Positions 5,012-32,199 of a DNA stretch of 32,648 nucleotides are shown piece after piece. Each line of letters starts with the position of its first letter. Position 1 is the stretch's first letter. A program made the translations under genes and the position numbers. The DNA lies in the NCBI GenBank assembly GCA_017514765.1, contig JAFWIU010000001.1:1-32648 (forward strand), given 5' to 3'. The notes beneath the pieces were generated by a model. The model was not told the DNA's origin. It made no database searches and saw only the letters and a list, made by a program, of their open reading frames with translations. Source of the stretch: Candidatus Saccharimonadota bacterium (GTDB taxonomy: Bacteria; Patescibacteriota; Saccharimonadia; Saccharimonadales; Saccharimonadaceae).

Positions 5012-6955
5012 ATGAGACAAGGTAAGAGATCATTAAATGGCATGTTGCTAGTAGTAAGTGGGCTAGTGATGATGACAATGTCGGGGATGGTATTGGTCGG
5101 TAGTAGGGTGCTAGCGGACGATGCGGTGACGGTGCAAACATCTATTATGGTACCGATTGCTTGTACAATGCAAGGCACTGGTACGACACACGCAGCGACT
5201 CTGTCGCCAAATACTTATTCGGGTGCATCTGGTTCTGCATATGAAAACGGCATAGGTAAGACTACCCTCACCGCTATTTGTAATGACGATAATGGCTTCT
5301 CTATCTATGCGATAGGATATACTGGTAATTCATATACTGATACTAACCATACTAAATTAGTAGGTAATACGACTGGTGGTACAATTAATACAGCAGTGTA
5401 TGCTAACGGTGATTCTACCTCCAGTTGGTCTATGAAACTAATTAAGGTGACAGACGCATCGGAATCTTACAATCCACAGAACCTAACTATTTCAACTGGT
5501 TATGATGACTGGATAGCGGTACCAGCATCCTTTACTAAGGTAGCTCAATATAAAGCTAATACAGGTTCTTCTACTACAGATATGACATTAGGTGTTAAAC
5601 TAGAAACAACCTATGCGGCTTATGTATCTGCTAATCAATCAGCTGATACTTACATAGGACAAGTGAAGTATACAATGGTGCATCCCTATAATGAAGAACC
5701 AGTACAACCACAGCAAGCTACAGCTGGTTGCATTAACTATTTTGCTAATGCAAGTAGTGCAGTAGGTAGTATGGGATGTCAGTCTGCTACAGATGGAAAC
5801 ACTATTACCCTACTTGCATCTAATTTCAGTAGAACAGGTTATGGTTTTGCGGGATGGTCTGATAAGTTTGACTATGCCACGAATATTGAAGCACATTTTT
5901 ATGGTCCACAGGAAGACATTACAGTACCAACTGGTACTACCGCTAATGGTCTAAGTCTCTATGCTGTATGGGTAAAGTCACAAGGTAACTTGCAAGATGC
6001 TAGTAAAGTCTCATCTATCTGCTCTGGACTTACCACTGCACCTACTGATGGTACTGCCAATCTCTCATCTATCTCCGCATTAACCGATCAACGCGACAAC
6101 GAAACCTACGCTATTGCTAAATTGGCTGATGGCAAATGTTGGATGATTGAAAACCTAAGACTTGAAAGCACCAACAGCGACAACTCGACGGGCGCTCTCG
6201 CGCAAGGTTATGGTACAAGTACTACCTATGGCAACTTCGGAGGTCTAGCCGATGCAGAATCTGCTAAATTTTCTAATTCCACTACCGCCAACTCTCTTTA
6301 TTATAGTGGCACCCAAAGTGGTGATGCAACTATAAATATTGGTACTACGAATTACCCAGCCTACCGTATGCCGCGCTATAATAACCTTAATACTCAATCC
6401 AGAGCACAAAACAGTCCAAATAGTAATACGTTTTCAGACGACAATACTACAGGTGGTATGTATAGTTATGGCAATTATTATACTTGGCATGCTGCTATAG
6501 CAGATCTTACCTACAATGATACCAACAACAGCACTGTAACAAATACTTCACTTTGTCCGTCTGGTTGGAGATTGCCACAAGGTGGTAATAAGACCAGAAT
6601 CACTTCAAATGACGATAATGACTTCTGGAACCTCACAGTAGATGCTCTAAATGGCGGTACCAATCCGGCCAACTATGATAGTAGCGATTCTCCATACTAC
6701 AACGGTACCGCTGAAGCTGGTCCAGTAACAGCTAGGCTTAGAGCTTACCCAAATAACTTCCTTTACTCCGGCTACTTCTATACGTCGTCTGCCTACAGTA
6801 GAGGTAGTAGCGGCTACTATTGGTCGTCTACTGCGTACAATAACTACGGTTCGTACAACCTGCGCCTGGATAGTTCCCGCGTGTACCCAGGTACCGATTA
6901 CGGCGTTAAGTACCTTGGCTACAGTATTAGATGCACGGTATCGGCCGGTACTTAG
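5012..6955 (+). CDS. Secreted surface protein with InlB-like repeat and Fib_succ_major domain, DGR target
   Basis: 647 aa. Residues 1-36 are a Sec signal peptide: basic MRQGKR, a hydrophobic core and likely cleavage after VLA (ADDAV follows). Residues about 37-235 form a Thr/Ser/Asn-rich extracellular region I do not recognise. Residues about 239-327 hold an InlB-type repeat (RTGYGFAGW ... LYAVW), and about 357-642 a Fib_succ_major C-type-lectin-like domain (LTDQRDN, KCWMIENLRL, LCPSGWRLP). The last ~55 codons are a variable region. The protein is paralogous to the one ending at 1252; between the two genes the upstream domains have drifted at synonymous sites while the variable regions have not. 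Likely role: a diversified receptor for host or environmental ligands (inference). No C-terminal sorting signal or membrane helix is visible, so how it attaches is unclear. Confidence 0.88.
   Translation: MRQGKRSLNGMLLVVSGLVMMTMSGMVLVGSRVLADDAVTVQTSIMVPIACTMQGTGTTHAATLSPNTYSGASGSAYENGIGKTTLTAICNDDNGFSIYAIGYTGNSYTDTNHTKLVGNTTGGTINTAVYANGDSTSSWSMKLIKVTDASESYNPQNLTISTGYDDWIAVPASFTKVAQYKANTGSSTTDMTLGVKLETTYAAYVSANQSADTYIGQVKYTMVHPYNEEPVQPQQATAGCINYFANASSAVGSMGCQSATDGNTITLLASNFSRTGYGFAGWSDKFDYATNIEAHFYGPQEDITVPTGTTANGLSLYAVWVKSQGNLQDASKVSSICSGLTTAPTDGTANLSSISALTDQRDNETYAIAKLADGKCWMIENLRLESTNSDNSTGALAQGYGTSTTYGNFGGLADAESAKFSNSTTANSLYYSGTQSGDATINIGTTNYPAYRMPRYNNLNTQSRAQNSPNSNTFSDDNTTGGMYSYGNYYTWHAAIADLTYNDTNNSTVTNTSLCPSGWRLPQGGNKTRITSNDDNDFWNLTVDALNGGTNPANYDSSDSPYYNGTAEAGPVTARLRAYPNNFLYSGYFYTSSAYSRGSSGYYWSSTAYNNYGSYNLRLDSSRVYPGTDYGVKYLGYSIRCTVSAGT
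6764..6940 (+). repeat. DGR variable region 2 (VR2)
   Basis: Partner of VR1. Variable codons lie between 6779 and 6922. Framework codons such as GGYYWSSTA, SS.V.PGTD and SIRCTV are kept, while the 19 differing codons are almost all NNY with the same third base in both copies. One exception class also fits A-directed change: atg in VR1 against aag here. Confidence 0.85.
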
Positions 6956-22968: not shown

Positions 22969-23031
22969 TCTCCATATTTTATCACAGAGGTCACCTATCG
23001 CCAACTTTTAATTAATTTGGGGCGAATTGTT

Positions 23032-23061
23032 CAGACATTAACAATTTATAGGAAAGACATT
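23032..23061 (+). repeat. TATTAACA repeat, copy 2
   Basis: GGCGAATTGTTCAGACATTAACA..TTATAGGAAAGACATT. TATAAT follows 78 bases after the ATTAACA word, the same spacing as copy 4, so the two are diverged copies of one ~120-bp unit. Between 23121 and 23188 I see a weak hairpin and a run of C then T, but no gene. Confidence 0.55.
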
Positions 23062-23201: not shown

Positions 23202-23825
23202 ATGGAAAAGTTGAGTTGTTCAGGTATTAACGATTTTAATTTTGTAATCTTGCATGGATATACTGAGCATAACGATACGGAATTCTTCCCGTGGCTCAAG
23301 AACCAATTGGAACATTTAGGATACAAAGTGCAGCTTCCAGAGTTGCCCGATACTGATATGCCATTAGAATATAAACAGGTTGAATATGTAGTAAAAAATA
23401 TTATGTTTAACGAGAGGACTATTCTGATAGGGCATAGTCTTGGTGGAGTGGTAGCAATGAAAACGCTAGAAAAACTTTCATCGGGGGTTTTCGGACTAGG
23501 GTTAGTAGCGCCGGGTGGTCTAGAGAAACAGTTTTGGACGGAAGATTTTGAGTTTGACCGCCGTTCTGGTACGCAAAAACAGTATTTGGCAGGGTTTGAT
23601 TTCGAATATGATTTTACACAGATTACGTCAAATATTAAAAGATGTATAATCTTGGGATCAGATAATGATGCTGAATACAGACTACCATGGATGGAATACC
23701 TCGCAAAAAAACTAAATGGTCAGTTAAGAATGGTGCATGCTAGGGGGTTTCATTTTACTGCAACTGAGGAGCCTGAAGTTTTAAAGATGGCTCTTGATTT
23801 TGTTAAGAGGCAAGAAAACCGTTAG
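23202..23825 (+). CDS. Alpha/beta hydrolase, RBBP9/YdeN type
   Basis: 207 aa. Seen: VILHGYTEHNDTEFFPWLKNQLE at the N-terminus, nucleophile S79 in IGHSLGGVVA, a likely catalytic Asp in LGSDNDAEY, and a His in GFHFT near the C-terminus, in the order Ser-Asp-His expected for the fold. The small size and DTEFFPWL segment match the RBBP9/YdeN serine hydrolase group. The substrate is unknown. It is a single gene on a leaderless promoter in the accessory stretch. Confidence 0.85.
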   Translation: MEKLSCSGINDFNFVILHGYTEHNDTEFFPWLKNQLEHLGYKVQLPELPDTDMPLEYKQVEYVVKNIMFNERTILIGHSLGGVVAMKTLEKLSSGVFGLGLVAPGGLEKQFWTEDFEFDRRSGTQKQYLAGFDFEYDFTQITSNIKRCIILGSDNDAEYRLPWMEYLAKKLNGQLRMVHARGFHFTATEEPEVLKMALDFVKRQENR

Positions 23826-23892: not shown

Positions 23893-24050
23893 AGGGTATT
23901 AACAAAAATTTTAACAGGGGTAAATGTGTATTTTTGGCAGTTTTTTGCTAGAAAAAATGGTCCAAAATTACATACTATTTTTGCAGGGTACTTAACAGAG
24001 ATTTACCGCTAAAAAATCGGCCATTTTGCCGATTCGTATATAATCTGGTG
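23893..24050 (+). repeat. Non-coding repeat module R1 (contains TATTAACA copy 3)
   Basis: About 158 bp that aligns along its length with 24519-24677. Shared points in order: GTATTAACA, a GGGGTAAA word, TACTTAACAGA, an AAAAAATCGGC...GCCGA hairpin, and TATATAATCTGGTGG at the end. On the minus strand the hairpin plus TTTTTT would act as a terminator. No reading frame of note. It lies in the 330-base gene-free stretch between the hydrolase and the structured RNA. Confidence 0.65.
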
Positions 24051-24064
24051 GGGGCGAATTGCCC

Positions 24065-24100
24065 AAGTATTAACACGATATAGGAGGAAAATTTGACATT
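24065..24100 (+). repeat. TATTAACA repeat, copy 4
   Basis: GTATTAACACGATATAGGAGG, preceded by the small palindrome GGGCGAATTGCCC that is also seen in part before copy 2. It ends just ahead of the -35 box of the structured RNA. Confidence 0.55.
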
Positions 24101-24123
24101 TTAATAAAAAACCATAAAAAGTA

Positions 24124-24152
24124 TTGACTTTTTTGATAATGTGTGCTATAAT
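24124..24152 (+). promoter_or_regulatory. Consensus promoter of the structured RNA
   Basis: TTGACT at 24124-24129 and TATAAT at 24147-24152 with a 17-bp spacer and a TGC just before the -10. It is among the best sigma-70-type promoters in the window. Expected start near 24159. Confidence 0.75.
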
Positions 24153-24158
24153 GTAATC

Positions 24159-24494
24159 ATACTCAAATGATATCCCTAGTGTCAGATGAGTAAGCAACTG
24201 CTTAGACAATTGCCCCAGTATTGTCCTACTGAGGAATAACAATTGAGAAAGACTAAGCGTAATTGGTGGGACACTCTCTCATCTCTGCCGAAAGGTGAGA
24301 CTGCTACCCGAAAGGGTAATGTTCTAGGGTATATCCGAAAGGATGAAATAAGAAGGGGCGGTAGGTCGTCCCAAAACAAAGAGATGATTATTCAAGGCAA
24401 GACCGCAAGGTTAAACGGAAAACCATCCTCAACCTACACCCTGCGAGCACAGCTCGCAACCCCCCGCAGAATGTTGCGGGGGCTTTCTTTTTTT
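24159..24494 (+). ncRNA. Candidate structured RNA of about 335 nt, unknown class
   Basis: Bounded by a consensus promoter and a strong terminator. Hairpins seen in order: TAAGC-AACT-GCTTA; GACAAT...ATTGTC; then a multibranch closed by GGGAC (24268-24272) with GTCCC (24368-24372), holding three GAAA-capped stems (CC-GAAA-GG; TACCC-GAAA-GGGTA; ATCC-GAAA-GGAT). GTAGGT at 24361-24366 can pair with ACCTAC at 24432-24437, outside the multibranch, which would form a pseudoknot. Further on come GACC-GCAA-GGTT and GCGAGC-ACA-GCTCGC. I could not match it to tmRNA, RNase P RNA, SRP RNA, 6S or a known riboswitch. An 87-codon frame (24243-24506) crosses it but has no ribosome-binding site and runs through the terminator. 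Confidence 0.65.
24460..24494 (+). terminator. Terminator of the structured RNA
   Basis: CCCCCGCA, short loop, TGCGGGGG, then CTTTCTTTTTTT. Confidence 0.85.
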
Positions 24495-24518
24495 GAAAAA
24501 ACCTAGACCAAATTGTTT

Positions 24519-24881: not shown

Positions 24882-25331
24882 ATGGTAAAGAAAGGGCAAA
24901 GTAAGACCACCAATACAGACCAAACGGTTTTAAGGGACTCTAAGGGCCGTTTTAAGAAAGGTAGTAAGCCGAAGAACGGTTTTGATAAGAACCCAAAGAA
25001 TATCGCACCAGGAGGCTTCTGGCGCTATAAGGAGCATGGTAAGGCGGCTATTATCGATATATTCAAGATGACTATGGCTGACTTCAATAGTATTACCAAA
25101 ATTAAAGAGACAGATAAAACCGTACTAGACGAAATGCTGTTTATCAAGTTTAAGTCAGCAATGAATGGCAATTCAAGAGATGCTGACTTTCTATTAACGC
25201 AAGCATTCGGCTGTCCCCCAAAATACGAGGAGGCAAAGTATGACTACCAAGCAGATTTTCGAAATAAGCGGAGCCCTCTAGAAGATCTGACCGTAGAAGA
25301 ACTAAGAGCACTCATTAAAGATACTAAATAA
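24882..25331 (+). CDS. Small basic DUF5681-like protein
   Basis: 149 aa. The N-terminal 60 residues are Lys/Gly/Asn-rich (DSKGRFKKGSKPKNGFDKNPKNI), resembling the DUF5681 motif found in phage and plasmid proteins, some placed near terminase genes. The C-terminal part is helical with a conserved-looking FLLTQAFGCPPKYEE and an acidic end. A nucleic-acid-binding role is a guess. AGGAGG precedes the ATG. No other phage gene is nearby, so this may be a remnant of a mobile element or a cargo gene. Confidence 0.5.
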   Translation: MVKKGQSKTTNTDQTVLRDSKGRFKKGSKPKNGFDKNPKNIAPGGFWRYKEHGKAAIIDIFKMTMADFNSITKIKETDKTVLDEMLFIKFKSAMNGNSRDADFLLTQAFGCPPKYEEAKYDYQADFRNKRSPLEDLTVEELRALIKDTK

Positions 25332-25432: not shown

Positions 25433-27541
25433 ATGGGGAATCTAAAAGATATTCAGATAGAAAAATCATATTCGAGCGAAGGACAAAATTTACTCAGTGA
25501 TTTCTATGTCCCCGTACTTAAATGTGCTAAAAAATATGACCGGATCTCTGGTTTTTTCTCTCCGAAAATTCTTTCTGTTGCAGCAAGAGGTTTTGCGCAA
25601 GCTATTAAGAACGACGTAAAAATTAGACTCGTGACCAGCATAAAAGTCGATCAAAGCTTAGCCGAACTATCTATTGAAGACATTCAAAAAACGTTACTAT
25701 TCAACTTGGCTCAGTGGGATGTAAATGAAATACAAGACGAACTTGAAAAAGATTATTTAAAAGTCTTTTCGTACATGCTTAGTAGTGGGATGCTAGAGAT
25801 GAAAATAGCCATCATGAATAATGATGGTATTTTGCATCAAAAAGTTGGTATTATTACTGATCAGGACAATAACGCTATTTCGTTTAGCGGATCGAATAAT
25901 GAGACTGTTTATGGTTGGGAAACAAACGACGAGGAGTTTAAAGTATTCACAAATTGGAATATTGCGTCAATTGATTATTTTGACTCTGATAAAAAGAAGT
26001 TCGAGAAGATTTGGAGTGGCAATTATGCGCACGCAAAAGTAGTTGATTTGCCAGATGCTATACGTACGAAGATTATTGATTATACAAAAACCGAAGAAGA
26101 CATCGATAAAGTAATTGAACGAGTTAAAAAACGAGAGAATGGCGGTATCGTAAAACCGGACGAGAATAAAAGAGAGCCAAGACCATATCAACTTGAAGCT
26201 ATCAACCACTGGTTTAGCAATAATTTCAATTCGATATTCGCCATGGCAACTGGTACTGGAAAAACTTTCACAACAATGAATGCTCTAAAGCGTTTTAGGG
26301 AAATTATGGGATCGTTAAACGCAGTAATAGCTGTGCCATTAAGAACGCTAGCGGAACAATGGGAAAATGAAGTGGTTGATTTTTTCCCAGATATAGCAAT
26401 TATTAATACGTCGGAAAGTTCAGATTGGAAATATAGAGTCAAAGCAATTGAGCAAGATTATCAACGTCGAGGTACTGTTAAGGATTTCGTAATTATTACG
26501 ACTTATTCATCATTCCCCAATATAGCTGAATCGATGATTGGTGAAGATGTATTGTTGGTAGCAGATGAAATGCACAATTTAGCCACCGATAGAGGACTAA
26601 AGGCAGCAGCTTCCGATATATTTAGATATAAGATCGGACTTAGTGCCACTCCGGAAAGATTATGGAAACCATCCGAAAGCGCAGTACTAACTCAATTATT
26701 CGGCAATAATCGTTTCGAATTTGGCATTGAACAGGCGCTGGATAATAATTGTTTGGTACATTTTAATTATCATCCGAATTTTATTGAGCTTACAGCAGAC
26801 GAATATGAAGAATATGTCCAGCTATCAAGAAAAATTGCAAAGATGGCGGCAAGTGTGAGTGGGGACGTTGATGATAACTACGATGCTGGCGATAATACTG
26901 CACTGAATATGGAACTTATAAAACGATCCAGAATCAAAAAGAACGCCGTATCTAAAATTCCTTATATCATCCAACAATTAAAGAGCCTAAAAGATAAATC
27001 CGAGCTAAATAGAGCCCTCATATATGTAGATAATGAAGTGTTCTTAAACGACTTACAAAATGCTCTAGCAACATCAAGGATAGTTACATCACGTTTTCTA
27101 GGAAGTACGCCATCGGATGAGAGAAATAAAATAATTCAGAATCTATGTTCTAATACAATCGATGCAATTATAGCAATTAAGTGTCTTGATGAGGGTGTCG
27201 ACATTCCATCAGCCAGACAAGCGTTTATCCTATCTAACGGTACTGATCCACGTGAGTATGTGCAGCGCTTAGGCCGTGTTTTGAGAAAAGATGATAAAAG
27301 TGGAAAGAAAGTGGCTGAAGTTCATGACTATTTGATACTACCGCCATCAGGAATTCGATACGCTGACGACTTCGAGAGAAACACTATTAGAAATATGGTT
27401 AAAAACGAAATCAAAAGATCTAATTTCTTTGTTCGTCTTTCGAATAATGGAGACGAAGCCAAAGATATAATAGCGGAAAAGGCGTTTTCGCTTGGCTTTG
27501 ATTTCACGGATGATTTTAATGACGAAAGAAAGGAGATTTAA
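25433..27541 (+). CDS. PLD-nuclease/SF2-helicase fusion, restriction-type
   Basis: 702 aa. The N-terminal phospholipase-D-like nuclease domain (residues about 1-200) has H135-x-K137 and GSNNE at 153-157. The SF2 DEAD/DEAH core follows: Q-type RPYQLEAI, Walker A ATGTGKT at 272-278, motif II DEMH at 378-381, motif III GLSATPERL, motif V LDEGVDIP, motif VI QRLGRVLRK. One PLD half-motif means a dimer would be needed for catalysis. Such fusions act as DNA restriction effectors, including helicases named for phosphorothioation restriction in Dnd islands. It is the first gene of a four-gene operon; one base separates its stop from the next start. Codon use is rich in AGA, unlike the core genes. Confidence 0.85.
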   Translation: MGNLKDIQIEKSYSSEGQNLLSDFYVPVLKCAKKYDRISGFFSPKILSVAARGFAQAIKNDVKIRLVTSIKVDQSLAELSIEDIQKTLLFNLAQWDVNEIQDELEKDYLKVFSYMLSSGMLEMKIAIMNNDGILHQKVGIITDQDNNAISFSGSNNETVYGWETNDEEFKVFTNWNIASIDYFDSDKKKFEKIWSGNYAHAKVVDLPDAIRTKIIDYTKTEEDIDKVIERVKKRENGGIVKPDENKREPRPYQLEAINHWFSNNFNSIFAMATGTGKTFTTMNALKRFREIMGSLNAVIAVPLRTLAEQWENEVVDFFPDIAIINTSESSDWKYRVKAIEQDYQRRGTVKDFVIITTYSSFPNIAESMIGEDVLLVADEMHNLATDRGLKAAASDIFRYKIGLSATPERLWKPSESAVLTQLFGNNRFEFGIEQALDNNCLVHFNYHPNFIELTADEYEEYVQLSRKIAKMAASVSGDVDDNYDAGDNTALNMELIKRSRIKKNAVSKIPYIIQQLKSLKDKSELNRALIYVDNEVFLNDLQNALATSRIVTSRFLGSTPSDERNKIIQNLCSNTIDAIIAIKCLDEGVDIPSARQAFILSNGTDPREYVQRLGRVLRKDDKSGKKVAEVHDYLILPPSGIRYADDFERNTIRNMVKNEIKRSNFFVRLSNNGDEAKDIIAEKAFSLGFDFTDDFNDERKEI

Positions 27542-27736
27542 ATGGACGACTATTTAAATAATGATATGGTCGAAGCAATAAACGCCTGTAAACTGTCACA
27601 AGAAGCAAATAGCGCCATAAGACAAATACTAATGCGAGAGCGTAGCGAAAAAAACGTCTTAGGGGCGAACGACCTCGAAACGCTAGAGCAATATGACAAA
27701 ATAATTGACGAGGCTGTTAATAAGGGAGGAAATTAA
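27542..27736 (+). CDS. 64-aa helical protein between helicase and DndD-like ATPase
   Basis: Not recognised. It is acidic, probably two or three helices, with NDLETLEQYDKIIDEAVNKGG at the end. The start ATG directly follows the helicase stop, with AAAGGAG inside the helicase end, and its stop lies just before the next start, so it is translated as part of the operon. It is likely a small subunit or adaptor of the complex; a bridging role is inference only. Confidence 0.6.
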   Translation: MDDYLNNDMVEAINACKLSQEANSAIRQILMRERSEKNVLGANDLETLEQYDKIIDEAVNKGGN

Positions 27737-27737
27737 T

Positions 27738-29672
27738 ATGGTACATTTTGATTATGTAAAAATCTCCCACTTTAGATCATATATTGATACAGAAATTGAA
27801 TTCGACAGCGAAACCGGCGTCTATATAATTAATGGCGATAATGGTACAGGTAAGTCAACTTTCTTGAATGCAATCAACTGGTGTCTATATGGAGATACCC
27901 CATTCTACAGCGTTAAGAGATATATAGAAGTCGCAAATATTGACGACCCAGATGGTACGGAAACTTCAGTTGAACTATGGGCAACAATTGATGATTATAA
28001 ATATCGCTTTATTCGAAGAGTCAGAAAAGGACAAGGCACAACTGGAGAATTATCCGTTCAGAGAGCAAGAGAGATCGATGCGAACAATTACGAAACCCTA
28101 GACAGAGTAGAAAGCAATGATGCAGTAAAGCAATTAGTACCAAAAGAATTACGACAGCTATTCTTCTTTAACGGCGAGCAGTTAAAGGATATCTATAGCG
28201 GTACCGGCGACGGCCATAACACTTTGCGCAGTAATGTATATCAAGTGTCAGAGCTTGATATTATCGATAACGGCATCAATCACCTTACAGAGTTAAGCAA
28301 GCGTTATTATAAGGCGATCACCAAAAATAATAAGAACAAAGATAAATGCGACGAACTAAAAAGCGATATTGAACAACTTGAGTCAGCCATCAAGGGTAGC
28401 CAAGAGCTCATTGATCAATATAAAGATGAAGTAAAAGATGCCAAAGCCAAAATCAATACACTTGACGAATTAATCAAGAATACCGCAGATGCACGCTCGT
28501 TGATCGAGCAGCGTGATATCTACGACAAACAAATAAAAGAACTAGATACGCAGATCTTCAACTTAAAACAAGATAAGAATGAAATTTTAGTAGAAAACTT
28601 TCATTCGGCTATTTTGTTTGATAAATTTGCAGATTACGCAGTCGTTCTCAATAACGCTAAGAGTGACGGAAAAATTCCAGCAGAAGTAGACCCGAAAGTA
28701 ACTAGAGCTATTCTTGATTCCGGGATCTGTTTGTGTGGACACCATATCACGGATGAAGAAAGAGCATTGATTCAGCAAAGACACGATGACTACGAAAAAC
28801 GCCAAGAGCTCCAATTCTTGACCGATGGAATCTATAAGTTTTCTGAAATTGCAAATAAATTGCCGATTGAGGGCGACAAATATGAAGACAGAGTAGATCG
28901 AATTAGCGAGCTAAAAACTCAAAAGGACAACATAGCGAAGAAGCTTAAAAAGATAAACGAACAACTTGAACAAGTTGATACAGCAAATATTCCAGACCAC
29001 CCAGAGAACGAAAGAGCTCGCCTACTTAGTAAAATTGAGCGTAATGGCATATTGGCCGTAAACGCAGCGCAAAACAAGGTCAAAAAAGAAGAAGAGCTAT
29101 CAGAAAAGAAGACGGAGCTCAAGCGCCTCACGAGTGCGGATACTGATACTAAAGACTACCAAAATAAGTATGAATATGTCGAAAAACTTATTGAGACTAT
29201 GTCTGAAGTAAAAGATAAGATGGAGAAAATTATTCGAGAAAAGCTCGAAGACAAAATGTGGCGTGTCTTCTCGGATATCTTGCCAAACACTGAGTATAAA
29301 GGAATCGAAATAAGCGATACATATTCCATCCGCTTGAAATACAAGGGCGATCAGGCATATTCCGTAGAAATGCTCGCAACCGGACCGGCTAAGGTACTGG
29401 GGCTAGCACTAATCTATGCTTTATCAATGGATCTTGGCTACAAGAGCGTTCCACTGCTAATTGATAACTTATACGGCGACATCGCAGATACTCACCATGA
29501 GGCTATGTCTACAATGATAAATTCGTTGGCAAAGAACAAACAGATCATCGTGATGAACCTAGTAGGAACAAATACCAGTGATATTCATATCGGCGGAAAC
29601 AACGTCATGGGTCGCTTCTTAATTGTCAAAGACGAAAATGCCAATGAGGCAAAGATCGTAAAGGAGAACTAA
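27738..29672 (+). CDS. DndD-like SMC-family ATPase
   Basis: 644 aa. ABC/SMC-type ATPase split by a coiled coil: Walker A GDNGTGKST at 33-41, then LFFFNGEQL, the FFF(D/N)GE motif typical of DndD. Two long coiled coils (about 190-290 and 385-495) flank a CLCG centre at 331-334, where a zinc hook would lie, although only two cysteines are seen per chain. The C-terminal lobe has a loose signature (ATGPAKVLGLALIYAL) and Walker B-like LLIDNLYGD with D576, in place of the DndD-type IDTPLG. DndD serves DNA phosphorothioation with DndC and DndE, but none of those is present, so here it probably powers or gates the PLD-helicase. I start at ATG 27738, after GGGAGGAAA; the longer TTG frame overlaps the preceding gene. 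Confidence 0.82.
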   Translation: MVHFDYVKISHFRSYIDTEIEFDSETGVYIINGDNGTGKSTFLNAINWCLYGDTPFYSVKRYIEVANIDDPDGTETSVELWATIDDYKYRFIRRVRKGQGTTGELSVQRAREIDANNYETLDRVESNDAVKQLVPKELRQLFFFNGEQLKDIYSGTGDGHNTLRSNVYQVSELDIIDNGINHLTELSKRYYKAITKNNKNKDKCDELKSDIEQLESAIKGSQELIDQYKDEVKDAKAKINTLDELIKNTADARSLIEQRDIYDKQIKELDTQIFNLKQDKNEILVENFHSAILFDKFADYAVVLNNAKSDGKIPAEVDPKVTRAILDSGICLCGHHITDEERALIQQRHDDYEKRQELQFLTDGIYKFSEIANKLPIEGDKYEDRVDRISELKTQKDNIAKKLKKINEQLEQVDTANIPDHPENERARLLSKIERNGILAVNAAQNKVKKEEELSEKKTELKRLTSADTDTKDYQNKYEYVEKLIETMSEVKDKMEKIIREKLEDKMWRVFSDILPNTEYKGIEISDTYSIRLKYKGDQAYSVEMLATGPAKVLGLALIYALSMDLGYKSVPLLIDNLYGDIADTHHEAMSTMINSLAKNKQIIVMNLVGTNTSDIHIGGNNVMGRFLIVKDENANEAKIVKEN

Positions 29673-30237: not shown

Positions 30238-32199
30238 ATGTCAACTAGCAAACCTAAGCTATCAGTTTCGGAGACGCCGTTCATTAGCGAGTGGGATTTT
30301 GAGGACAACAAACTTGACCCATCGGTTACCTCGATCTCGTCTAAAGAAAAAGCATGGTGGAAATGCCACAATTGTGGAGGGAGATACGAGACTTCGATCA
30401 ATCTAAAAACTATTCGTGGCATTAAATGTCCATATTGCACTGGAAATAGAGCTCTACCTGGTTTTAATGACCTGTTAACCAAATATCCTGAAATATGCAA
30501 AGAATGGGATTACGACAAAAATGTCATTCAACCATCAGAAGTTATGCCAGGATCAGGAAAGAGAGTATGGTGGATTTGTAGCAAATGCCATGGCAGCTAT
30601 GAAACCCAAATTCTTTCAAGGACGGGCGGACATGGATGTCCTTTTTGCAGAGGAATTAAAGTACTAAAAGGTTATAATGACCTGCAAACCTTAAGACCAG
30701 ATGTGGCGAAATACTGGGATACGAAGAAAAATAATCTTAAACCAGACGAAGTCACAATTGGCACGCATAAGAAATATTACTGGAAATGTAACAGCTGCGA
30801 TTATACTTGGTGCGACAGCGTTAATCATCAAGTCCACAAAAAAGGCTGTCCGGCATGCAAGATTGGAAAAAGCGATAGGTGCGGCATTAGAGTAGCAACA
30901 AAAGACAACTGCTTGTCAACTACGAACCCAGAAGTATTAACAAGTTGGGATTATTCGAAAAACACAATAAAGCCAGAAGAAGTAACTTCAGGAAGTGGCA
31001 AGATCGTATATTGGCATTGCGACAAATGCCACACCGAGTATCAGAAGAAAATTGGCGAACAAGTGAAGTATGGGTGTAGCTATTGTAATGGCAAATACCC
31101 AATTAAGGGTAAAAATGATTTAGCGACGTTATATCCAGATGTAGCTAAAGAATGGAATTACGAGAAAAATGGCAACTTAACACCAGACTGCGTAACCGCA
31201 ATGAATACAAGAAAGGTCTGGTGGAAATGTTCAAACTGCGGCAGAGAGTGGCAAGCCTATATTGAAAACAGGACGAGAGATAATAATGGGTGTCCTAGTT
31301 GTCAGGCACGCACGCACACATCCTTCCCAGAACAAGCAGTATTTTATTATATTAATAAAGCACTCCCAGATACACTCAATAGTTATCGAGATATTTTTGA
31401 TACAAGGATGGAGTTGGACATATACATACCTTCGAGAAAAATTGCAATCGAATATGACGGTAAGGCCTGGCATAAAAACAAATCAGATATTCAAAGAGAT
31501 ATCAACAAATACAATATCTGCAAAAAACATGGAATAAAACTAATAAGATTAGCTGAAGGCAATGATATCATTGAGCATTGCGATGAAGTAATAAAGTGCG
31601 ACTATAAAGCATTCCATTATATAGAGCTCGACGATGCAATTAAGAAGCTATCTGAAATCCTTGATATAAAAGTAGACATAGATAGCCATAGAGATGAAAA
31701 AATCATATTGCAGTCATACTTGGGTAGATTAGAAAAAGAATCAATTAAAGAGCTCTATCCGGAAAAATGCAAATACTGGGATTATGCGAATAACGGCACG
31801 TTAAAACCAAGCATGTTTAAACCCACAAGCGGAGTCCGTGTTGCATGGATCTGCCCTTCATGCGGCAAAAAATATGAAAGAAAAATTGGTGAGCAAATGC
31901 GAGGCTTGGGGCTATGCGCCAAATGTACCAGAAAAGAAACGTCAAAGCGATTACATGAAACAAAATTAAAAGAAAACGGAAGTCTAATGGACAAATATCC
32001 GGAAATCGCAAAATCGTGGGATTACGAAAAGAATGGCAAGTTAACGCCTAATGATGTTACGGCGCATTCTAGTCAAAGAATTTGGTGGAAATGCAACAAT
32101 TCGGAATGTAATCATTCTTGGATAACAGCTATATCTAATAGGACTGGCGGAGACAGAACTGGTTGCCCTAAATGCCACCAGGGTGGCCAAGGCAAATAA
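30238..32199 (+). CDS. Multi-zinc-ribbon protein with central Vsr-like nuclease domain
   Basis: 653 aa. Seven copies of the DUF4379-type (PF14311) zinc ribbon, each about 60-65 residues: P(E/D).(A/C)K.WDY.KN..L.P..V.....K.WW.C..C...........GCP.C. Five precede and two follow a nuclease-like domain at about 360-450. That domain has FPEQ at 363-366, E392-L-D394 and IAIEYDGKAWH with E405 and D407, then IKLIRL, the layout of Vsr/PD-(D/E)XK proteins. The ribbons presumably bind DNA; the nuclease would cut or nick it. Similar proteins occur beside defence and mobile genes. It has its own promoter after the operon terminator, so it is a neighbour rather than a co-transcribed member. It is A-rich and shares the accessory codon bias. 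Confidence 0.8.
   Translation: MSTSKPKLSVSETPFISEWDFEDNKLDPSVTSISSKEKAWWKCHNCGGRYETSINLKTIRGIKCPYCTGNRALPGFNDLLTKYPEICKEWDYDKNVIQPSEVMPGSGKRVWWICSKCHGSYETQILSRTGGHGCPFCRGIKVLKGYNDLQTLRPDVAKYWDTKKNNLKPDEVTIGTHKKYYWKCNSCDYTWCDSVNHQVHKKGCPACKIGKSDRCGIRVATKDNCLSTTNPEVLTSWDYSKNTIKPEEVTSGSGKIVYWHCDKCHTEYQKKIGEQVKYGCSYCNGKYPIKGKNDLATLYPDVAKEWNYEKNGNLTPDCVTAMNTRKVWWKCSNCGREWQAYIENRTRDNNGCPSCQARTHTSFPEQAVFYYINKALPDTLNSYRDIFDTRMELDIYIPSRKIAIEYDGKAWHKNKSDIQRDINKYNICKKHGIKLIRLAEGNDIIEHCDEVIKCDYKAFHYIELDDAIKKLSEILDIKVDIDSHRDEKIILQSYLGRLEKESIKELYPEKCKYWDYANNGTLKPSMFKPTSGVRVAWICPSCGKKYERKIGEQMRGLGLCAKCTRKETSKRLHETKLKENGSLMDKYPEIAKSWDYEKNGKLTPNDVTAHSSQRIWWKCNNSECNHSWITAISNRTGGDRTGCPKCHQGGQGK

Follow-up and report, generated by a model that had tools for sequence, protein, structure and literature searches.

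The stretch of DNA analysed here, referred to as the window, is an entire contig of 32,648 bases from a nearly complete genome of 697 kb. Between an alpha/beta-hydrolase gene (23202-23825) and a gene for a 149-aa protein, which is followed by PbeA- and PbeC-like genes, lies a unit (24124-24494) that begins with a promoter and ends with an intrinsic terminator, with a predicted RNA of about 330 nt between the two (Table 1). The promoter matches the consensus at 11 of 12 positions in addition to its TG extension, the terminator hairpin (24461-24482) has nine pairs followed by a T tail, and the RNA folds at -107.4 kcal/mol compared with -85.5 ± 5.1 kcal/mol for dinucleotide shuffles (z = -4.29; none of 100 shuffles was as good), so that the boundaries drawn in a preliminary description of this DNA, in which a promoter and a strong terminator enclose a structured RNA, stand. 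The next gene begins approximately 400 nt past the terminator, beyond another terminator-like hairpin. A 37-nt stretch at G000:C12:3804-3840 (minus strand) shares 95% identity with the A+T-rich promoter region (window 24119-24155) and may perhaps mark a second gene under the same type of promoter.

The 149-aa gene (24882-25331) matched nothing in Pfam, PHROGs, PADLOC or NCBIfam, its N-terminus LRDSKGRFKKGSKPKNGF being DUF5681-like by eye. Two genes at 25433-29672 resemble parts of a phosphorothioate-dependent restriction system, one matching PbeA (E = 3e-186) and the other PbeC (E = 2e-57). Beyond them come an unassigned 146-aa gene and a protein (30238-32199) that contains seven DUF4379 treble-clef domains and weakly matches endonucleases, soon after which the contig ends. 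Two FISUMP (Fib_succ_major) domain proteins, probably surface proteins, are encoded at 59-1252 and 5012-6955. No phage genes were recognised adjoining the RNA.

Table 1. Predicted features of the RNA gene, in window coordinates.
Feature	Sequence or description	Position	Strand	Remark
Promoter	TTGACT 24124-24129, 17-nt spacer, TATAAT 24147-24152, TG upstream	24124-24152	+	direct reading
P1	5' hairpin with central 2x2 AA/RA internal loop (CUCA AA UGA.. / ..UCA RA UGRG)	24161-24191	+	direct reading
Helix A	GCTTAG 24200-24205 x CTAAGC 24253-24258	24200-24258	+	
P2	CAATTG 24207-24212 x CAATTG 24240-24245	24207-24245	+	invariant
P3	CCCCAGTA/TACTGAGG, invariant loop TTGTCC 24221-24226	24213-24234	+	
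PK1	pseudoknot, loop TGTCC 24222-24226 x GGACA 24269-24273	24222-24273	+	
P5	TCTCATC/GGTGAGA, conserved loop containing GCCGAAA 24287-24293	24277-24300	+	
PK2	loop-loop kissing contact P5-P9, GCC 24287-24289 x GGC 24396-24398 (AAGGCAA, P9 loop)	24287-24398	+	
P6	TACCC GAAA GGGTA, variable hairpin	24305-24318	+	missing in G393 unit 1
P7	TATCC GAAA GGATG, variable hairpin	24332-24345	+	ACCAC/GTGGT in G316 and G393; missing in G058
P8	GGGGCG/CGTCCC, loop GTAGGT	24355-24372	+	missing in G058
PK3	loop GTAGGT 24361-24366 x ACCTAC 24432-24437, just before P10	24361-24437	+	
P9	long irregular hairpin; loop with AAGGCAA and optional extra hairpin (GACC GCAA GGTT in window)	24381-24430	+	
P10	pre-terminator hairpin GCGAGC/GCTCGC	24443-24457	+	GCAGGT/ACCTGC in G058
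Terminator	intrinsic, CCCCCGCA..TGCGGGGG and T tail	24461-24494	+	

The RNA was found in four genomes of one bacterial family (that of the window, G058, G316 and G393), with six units in all. BLAST within the genus detected a single unit in G058 (79% identity over 87 nt, E = 5.7e-13), where the parts follow the same order as in the window, namely promoter, hairpin, core, hairpin and terminator. A first covariance model, representing a 107-nt core and run on 394 genomes of the family, added G316 and G393 from another genus (E = 6e-13 to 1.5e-9, including 8e-12), each with a tandem pair of units, about 310 nt apiece, that share a single promoter and a single terminator. The identical -35/17/-10 promoter layout lies 5' of all three homologous loci and all of them close with terminators, both by direct reading, and the folds of the homologous units are comparably stable relative to shuffles (z = -4.63 for G316 unit 2 and -3.95 for G058).

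A second covariance model recovered all six units at E = 2e-19 to 4e-25 and no further units in overlapping samples drawn from the order (393 genomes), the class (393), the window's genus (all 174) and the genus of G316 (45); since scoring in the large samples was limited to the best first-look candidates of each genome, weak relatives may be missed. The sole extra match of this model was weak (E = 0.04) and lay inside a protein-coding stretch. Weak model matches in G281 and G007 were likewise discarded as false, both falling within apparent coding sequence (SecA-like by eye in G007). By covariance model the RNA is present in two of 174 congeners and missing from the other 172, a rarity that holds within the genomes sampled. 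A sequence pattern that matches all known copies, and a variant of it, found nothing in viral contigs, and distant BLAST gave no full-length match in phages or plasmids; the short phage matches, none covering more than 13% of the query, were confined to the A+T-rich promoter stretch. A literature search on structured RNAs in Saccharibacteria or Patescibacteria found no papers. On these searches, the RNA is a rare, previously uncatalogued family that is accessory in one bacterial family.

Overall identity between the window and the other copies is about 55-62%, and that between tandem units is 91-95%. Unit 1 of both G316 and G393 contains a common 13-nt insertion that unit 2 of both lacks, which implies that the duplication predates the split between these two genomes. 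Two copies standing side by side in one genus have seemingly been kept by selection.

Covariation was assessed in two alignments. In a MAFFT alignment of the core, 92.9% of cells are paired versus 87.9% in shuffles and 27-40% when partners were slid, and both sides have changed in eight pairs versus 2.7 in shuffles, counts that rest on few events as there are effectively three independent lineages; for four of the five measures, all 500 shuffles fell short of the real alignment. The full hand alignment, which takes in every helix, has 450 of 470 cells paired and both-side changes at 30 of 82 positions, the counts for the 3' half leaning towards structure as this half was aligned with pairing in view. 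Strands also pair better with their own partner than with that of another species (window and G058, 96/103 vs 72/103; window and G316, 130/136 vs 101/136), and none of 20000 permutations reached the own-strand value. The search for homologues with compensatory changes that had been proposed in the preliminary description thus found them in most stems, with no reading frame kept. An 87-aa open frame (24243-24506) does overlap the RNA, as might be expected of a decayed protein gene or of a chance fold without function; such an explanation is scarcely credible and is refuted on present evidence, given z values near -4 in three lineages, the compensatory changes, and the lack of any open frame shared among the copies, the longest frame differing from copy to copy. 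The unit displays what marks a structured non-coding RNA gene, that is, its own promoter and terminator, stability above that of shuffles, compensatory changes and no conserved frame, and 24124-24494 is very probably a self-contained, free-standing gene of this kind from a family absent from Rfam.

The predicted fold can be followed helix by helix across the lineages. In the outer and inner stems of P1, 64 of 66 pairs are kept, with both-side changes at three positions (hand alignment). Genome G058 has about three successive copies of P1 before the core (L024, G058:C36, about 5580-5700), with an AA/GA or AA/GG internal loop. Helix A reads ACTCAA/TTGAGT in G058 and is weak in G316 and G393; two of five counted pairs have changed on both sides. 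The cleanest case of covariation is P3, where the alignment is gap-free and four of eight pairs show both-side changes, the relatives having CCTTCATA/TACGAAGG, CCATCGTA/TACGATGG or CCACCGCA/TGCGATGG on either side of the invariant UUGUCC loop. P5 closes a conserved 10-nt loop, UCUGCCGAAA, by UCUCAUC/GGUGAGA; nearly all bases of this stem are replaced among the copies with pairing kept (UCUCAUC/GGUGAGA, CUCCA/UGGAG and CUUCAGUC/GGCUGGAG; both-side change in two of four counted pairs, MAFFT alignment), and the loop retains GCCGAAA. The inner stem of P9 keeps 34 of 36 pairs, with both-side changes at five of six positions (hand alignment) and with its AAGGCAA loop kept, and P10 has both-side changes at three of six positions (hand alignment).

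Among the predicted loop contacts, both sides of PK1 are invariant in all six units and show no covariation; the two motifs of PK2 are conserved in all units, again with no covariation, and form three to five pairs only. PK3 is paired in 30 of 30 cells with one both-side change (hand alignment): G316 and G393 have GTAGGG/C(C/T)CTAC, the sixth pair having gone from U-A to G-C. G058 has neither P8 nor the CUAC partner, so both halves of PK3 are missing together. Taken together, the predicted helices P1, P3, P5, P9 and P10, the coupled P8/PK3 and the tandem doubling in one genus are supported by comparison, and PK1 and PK2 are candidate contacts supported by conservation only.

This fold departs from the preliminary description in several respects. 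That description placed three GAAA-capped stems within a closed multibranch. The hairpins at 24305-24318 and 24332-24345 exist, whereas the third (24287-24296) is the 3' side of the P5 loop and no tetraloop; nor is the multibranch the conserved core, the GAAA hairpins P6 and P7 varying or vanishing in relatives and hence being peripheral. A stem with a GCAA loop is present as described, inside P9 (24381-24430), in a variable part of the RNA. A long-range helix crossing the multibranch had also been proposed, probably CATCTCT 24280-24286 with AGAGATG 24380-24386; pseudoknots do appear to be present, in the form of PK1, PK2 and PK3, whereas this helix competes with P5 and P9 and is only partly kept in relatives. 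As crossing interactions the three loop contacts are better supported by the comparison than is that helix.

The competing helix could nevertheless have a role of its own, if the 5' strand of P5 paired either with its 3' strand or with the 5' strand of P9 and a bound signal decided between the two conformations. We regard such a switch as unlikely. The alternative helix has seven of seven pairs in the window, where it is near-isoenergetic (-83.7 vs -84.6 kcal/mol), and six of seven in G316 despite altered bases; however, it has only five of seven pairs (four contiguous) in G058, is about 12 kcal/mol worse in G316, and agreement by chance at the one position searched is not negligible.

The same loops could also act between molecules. 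Kissing or palindromic elements (CAAUUG/CAAUUG of P2, CARAUG of P1, PK2 and PK3) would then join RNAs into dimers or multimers, as in OLE, ROOL and GOLLD, which multimerise by kissing loops (PMC12286853). The invariant loop complementarities and the tandem units suit an RNA-only assembly of this type, but a length of 300 nt is small against about 660 nt (ROOL) and more than 800 nt (GOLLD), there is no match to the ROOL or GOLLD Rfam models, and every contact is equally possible within one molecule, which leaves the assembly improbable.

The neighbourhoods of the RNA differ from site to site. In G058 it is preceded by an exo/endonuclease-phosphatase gene, and the next gene has its own promoter (direct reading). 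G316 and G393 share a convergent gene 3' of the RNA, on the opposite strand, with a papain-fold glutamine deamidase-like product that falls below the Pfam cut-off; on the upstream side, these two genomes differ in the genes that separate the RNA from an ABC transporter. No protein common to the neighbourhoods of the three lineages was found, the only cross-lineage match being a distant ABC-transporter similarity about 9 kb from the RNA in the window. The idea of a common tRNA neighbourhood was abandoned, since different tRNAs are found at the sites (Val/Lys, Ile/Ala, Val or none).

A low-copy intergenic repeat, GGGGGCRAATTGGGCAGGCATTAA / GGGGGCRAATTGGGCAGGCATTAAC.., flanks the RNA in the window (23018-23041 and 24050-24073) and occurs also at G000:C6:113-136 and in G002, G004, G005, G006 and G058. 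Of 12 genomes sampled in the genus, seven have it, six of these being without the RNA, and it was found in none of eight genomes from other families. The repeat is sometimes paired at a distance of 0.5-1 kb and sometimes has a CGGC..GCCG hairpin in front; in one frame it reads WWGRIGQALTIYKEDIRxKL with third-position variation, as though a short conserved peptide were encoded. It was considered as a cassette boundary and rejected: because it is found genus-wide in genomes without the RNA, it is a repeat of the genus and defines no cassette. Of the suggestion that the RNA is mobile or regulatory within an accessory stretch, what survives is its patchy presence at unrelated sites; the repeat marks no mobile unit and the orientation of the genes contradicts regulation in cis.

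The latter idea deserves a closer statement, since an arrangement of tandem aptamers ahead of a terminator is already known (review, PMC9481103), and G316 and G393 have two units and then one terminator in the same manner. A tandem riboswitch or attenuator would govern the next gene as the leader of a co-directional transcript. Here, the next gene in G316 and G393 lies on the opposite strand and is oriented towards the RNA, that in G058 is separately promoted and that in the window lies some 400 nt beyond the terminator, with no neighbour in common and downstream genes unrelated among the sites; cis-regulation is therefore very unlikely and largely refuted.

A partnership with a protein system, in which the RNA would serve as a TnpB-, IscB- or Cas12-like guide or scaffold or as a type III toxin-antitoxin RNA, is brought to mind by a pseudoknotted RNA in an accessory region beside the defence-type genes PbeA and PbeC. 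We consider it highly improbable, as the TnpB/Cas12f zinc ribbon was detected in none of the four RNA-bearing genomes (six of 14 controls were positive) and at the RNA Rfam matched neither HEARO/IscB RNA nor any CRISPR repeat. In type III systems the antitoxin consists of short repeats, each a few tens of nt long, that precede the toxin gene, while the units here are about 300 nt with no gene common to the three sites, and no ToxN-like toxin was found by Pfam among the neighbours at the window locus.

The reading that we favour, with moderate confidence, is that of a stand-alone gene for an untranslated RNA of about 300 nt from a new and rare accessory family, with a compact fold, a docking site for protein at P1 and a role in trans as a ribonucleoprotein scaffold. 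Its sigma-70-type promoter and its terminator would yield a free-standing transcript, in which the loop contacts (P2-P3-PK1, P5-P9 kissing and P8-PK3) would fold the core into a single compact body. P1 might be where a protein docks, a guess based on its conserved AA/RA internal loop and its multiplication in G058; no protein partner was indicated anywhere in the analysis. Action in trans is suggested by the differing neighbours and by the convergent downstream gene in two genomes, and the RNA looks like an accessory trans-acting gene rather than a cis-regulator, presumably aiding the strain that carries it much as orphan 'ornate' RNAs may on phages and accessory elements. More tentatively, and with a distinctly smaller probability, the RNA may represent an undescribed natural class whose tertiary core, with three loop contacts within 300 nt, is ordered. 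Such an RNA would act alone, either through ribozyme activity or as a multimer made of RNA only, and would spread as an accessory element of one gene among bacteria that have small genomes and are probably epibiotic.

Bacterial RNAs of such elaboration are few, and most of the known ones are unusual, being involved in catalysis, sensing or large assemblies. The present RNA is compact enough for direct structural work and comes from small-genome bacteria in which non-coding RNA has hardly been studied. Because it is dispensable in most relatives, its gain and loss can be compared.

With respect to known systems, the view that no known class fits was borne out by Rfam 15, where neither the window nor G058, G316 or G393 gave a match to the RNA above the gathering score. 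Relaxed thresholds gave weak matches in the window far below gathering scores; in the other three genomes only tRNAs passed, and no weak match recurred save a generic one at the terminator. By these tests, the RNA belongs to none of ROOL, GOLLD, OLE, tmRNA or the other Rfam families. Similarities to tmRNA are a size of about 350 nt, several pseudoknots and the ability to ride on mobile elements, but the new RNA has no tRNA-like domain or tag peptide frame, and ARAGORN and Rfam find no tmRNA in the window. The two homologous structured units ahead of a terminator in G316 and G393 recall tandem riboswitches, from which the RNA differs in apparently controlling no gene, the downstream gene being convergent or separately promoted. 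Like OLE and raiA, it would be a large trans-acting bacterial RNA with an elaborate conserved fold; unlike them it has no Rfam match and is far rarer, being restricted to one family as far as searched, and OLE exceeds it in length and functions together with known proteins. Kissing loops and A-minor contacts hold together the homo-multimers formed by OLE, ROOL and GOLLD; of these, ROOL and GOLLD, whose function is not known, are carried by phages or prophages and form RNA-only cages via kissing loops (PMC12286853). Compared with ROOL and GOLLD, the RNA reported here lacks an Rfam match, is at most half the size, has other stems and has no recognised phage genes adjoining it; it resembles them in being accessory, patchy and free-standing, with predicted pseudoknots and kissing loops and no known protein partner (PMC12286853).
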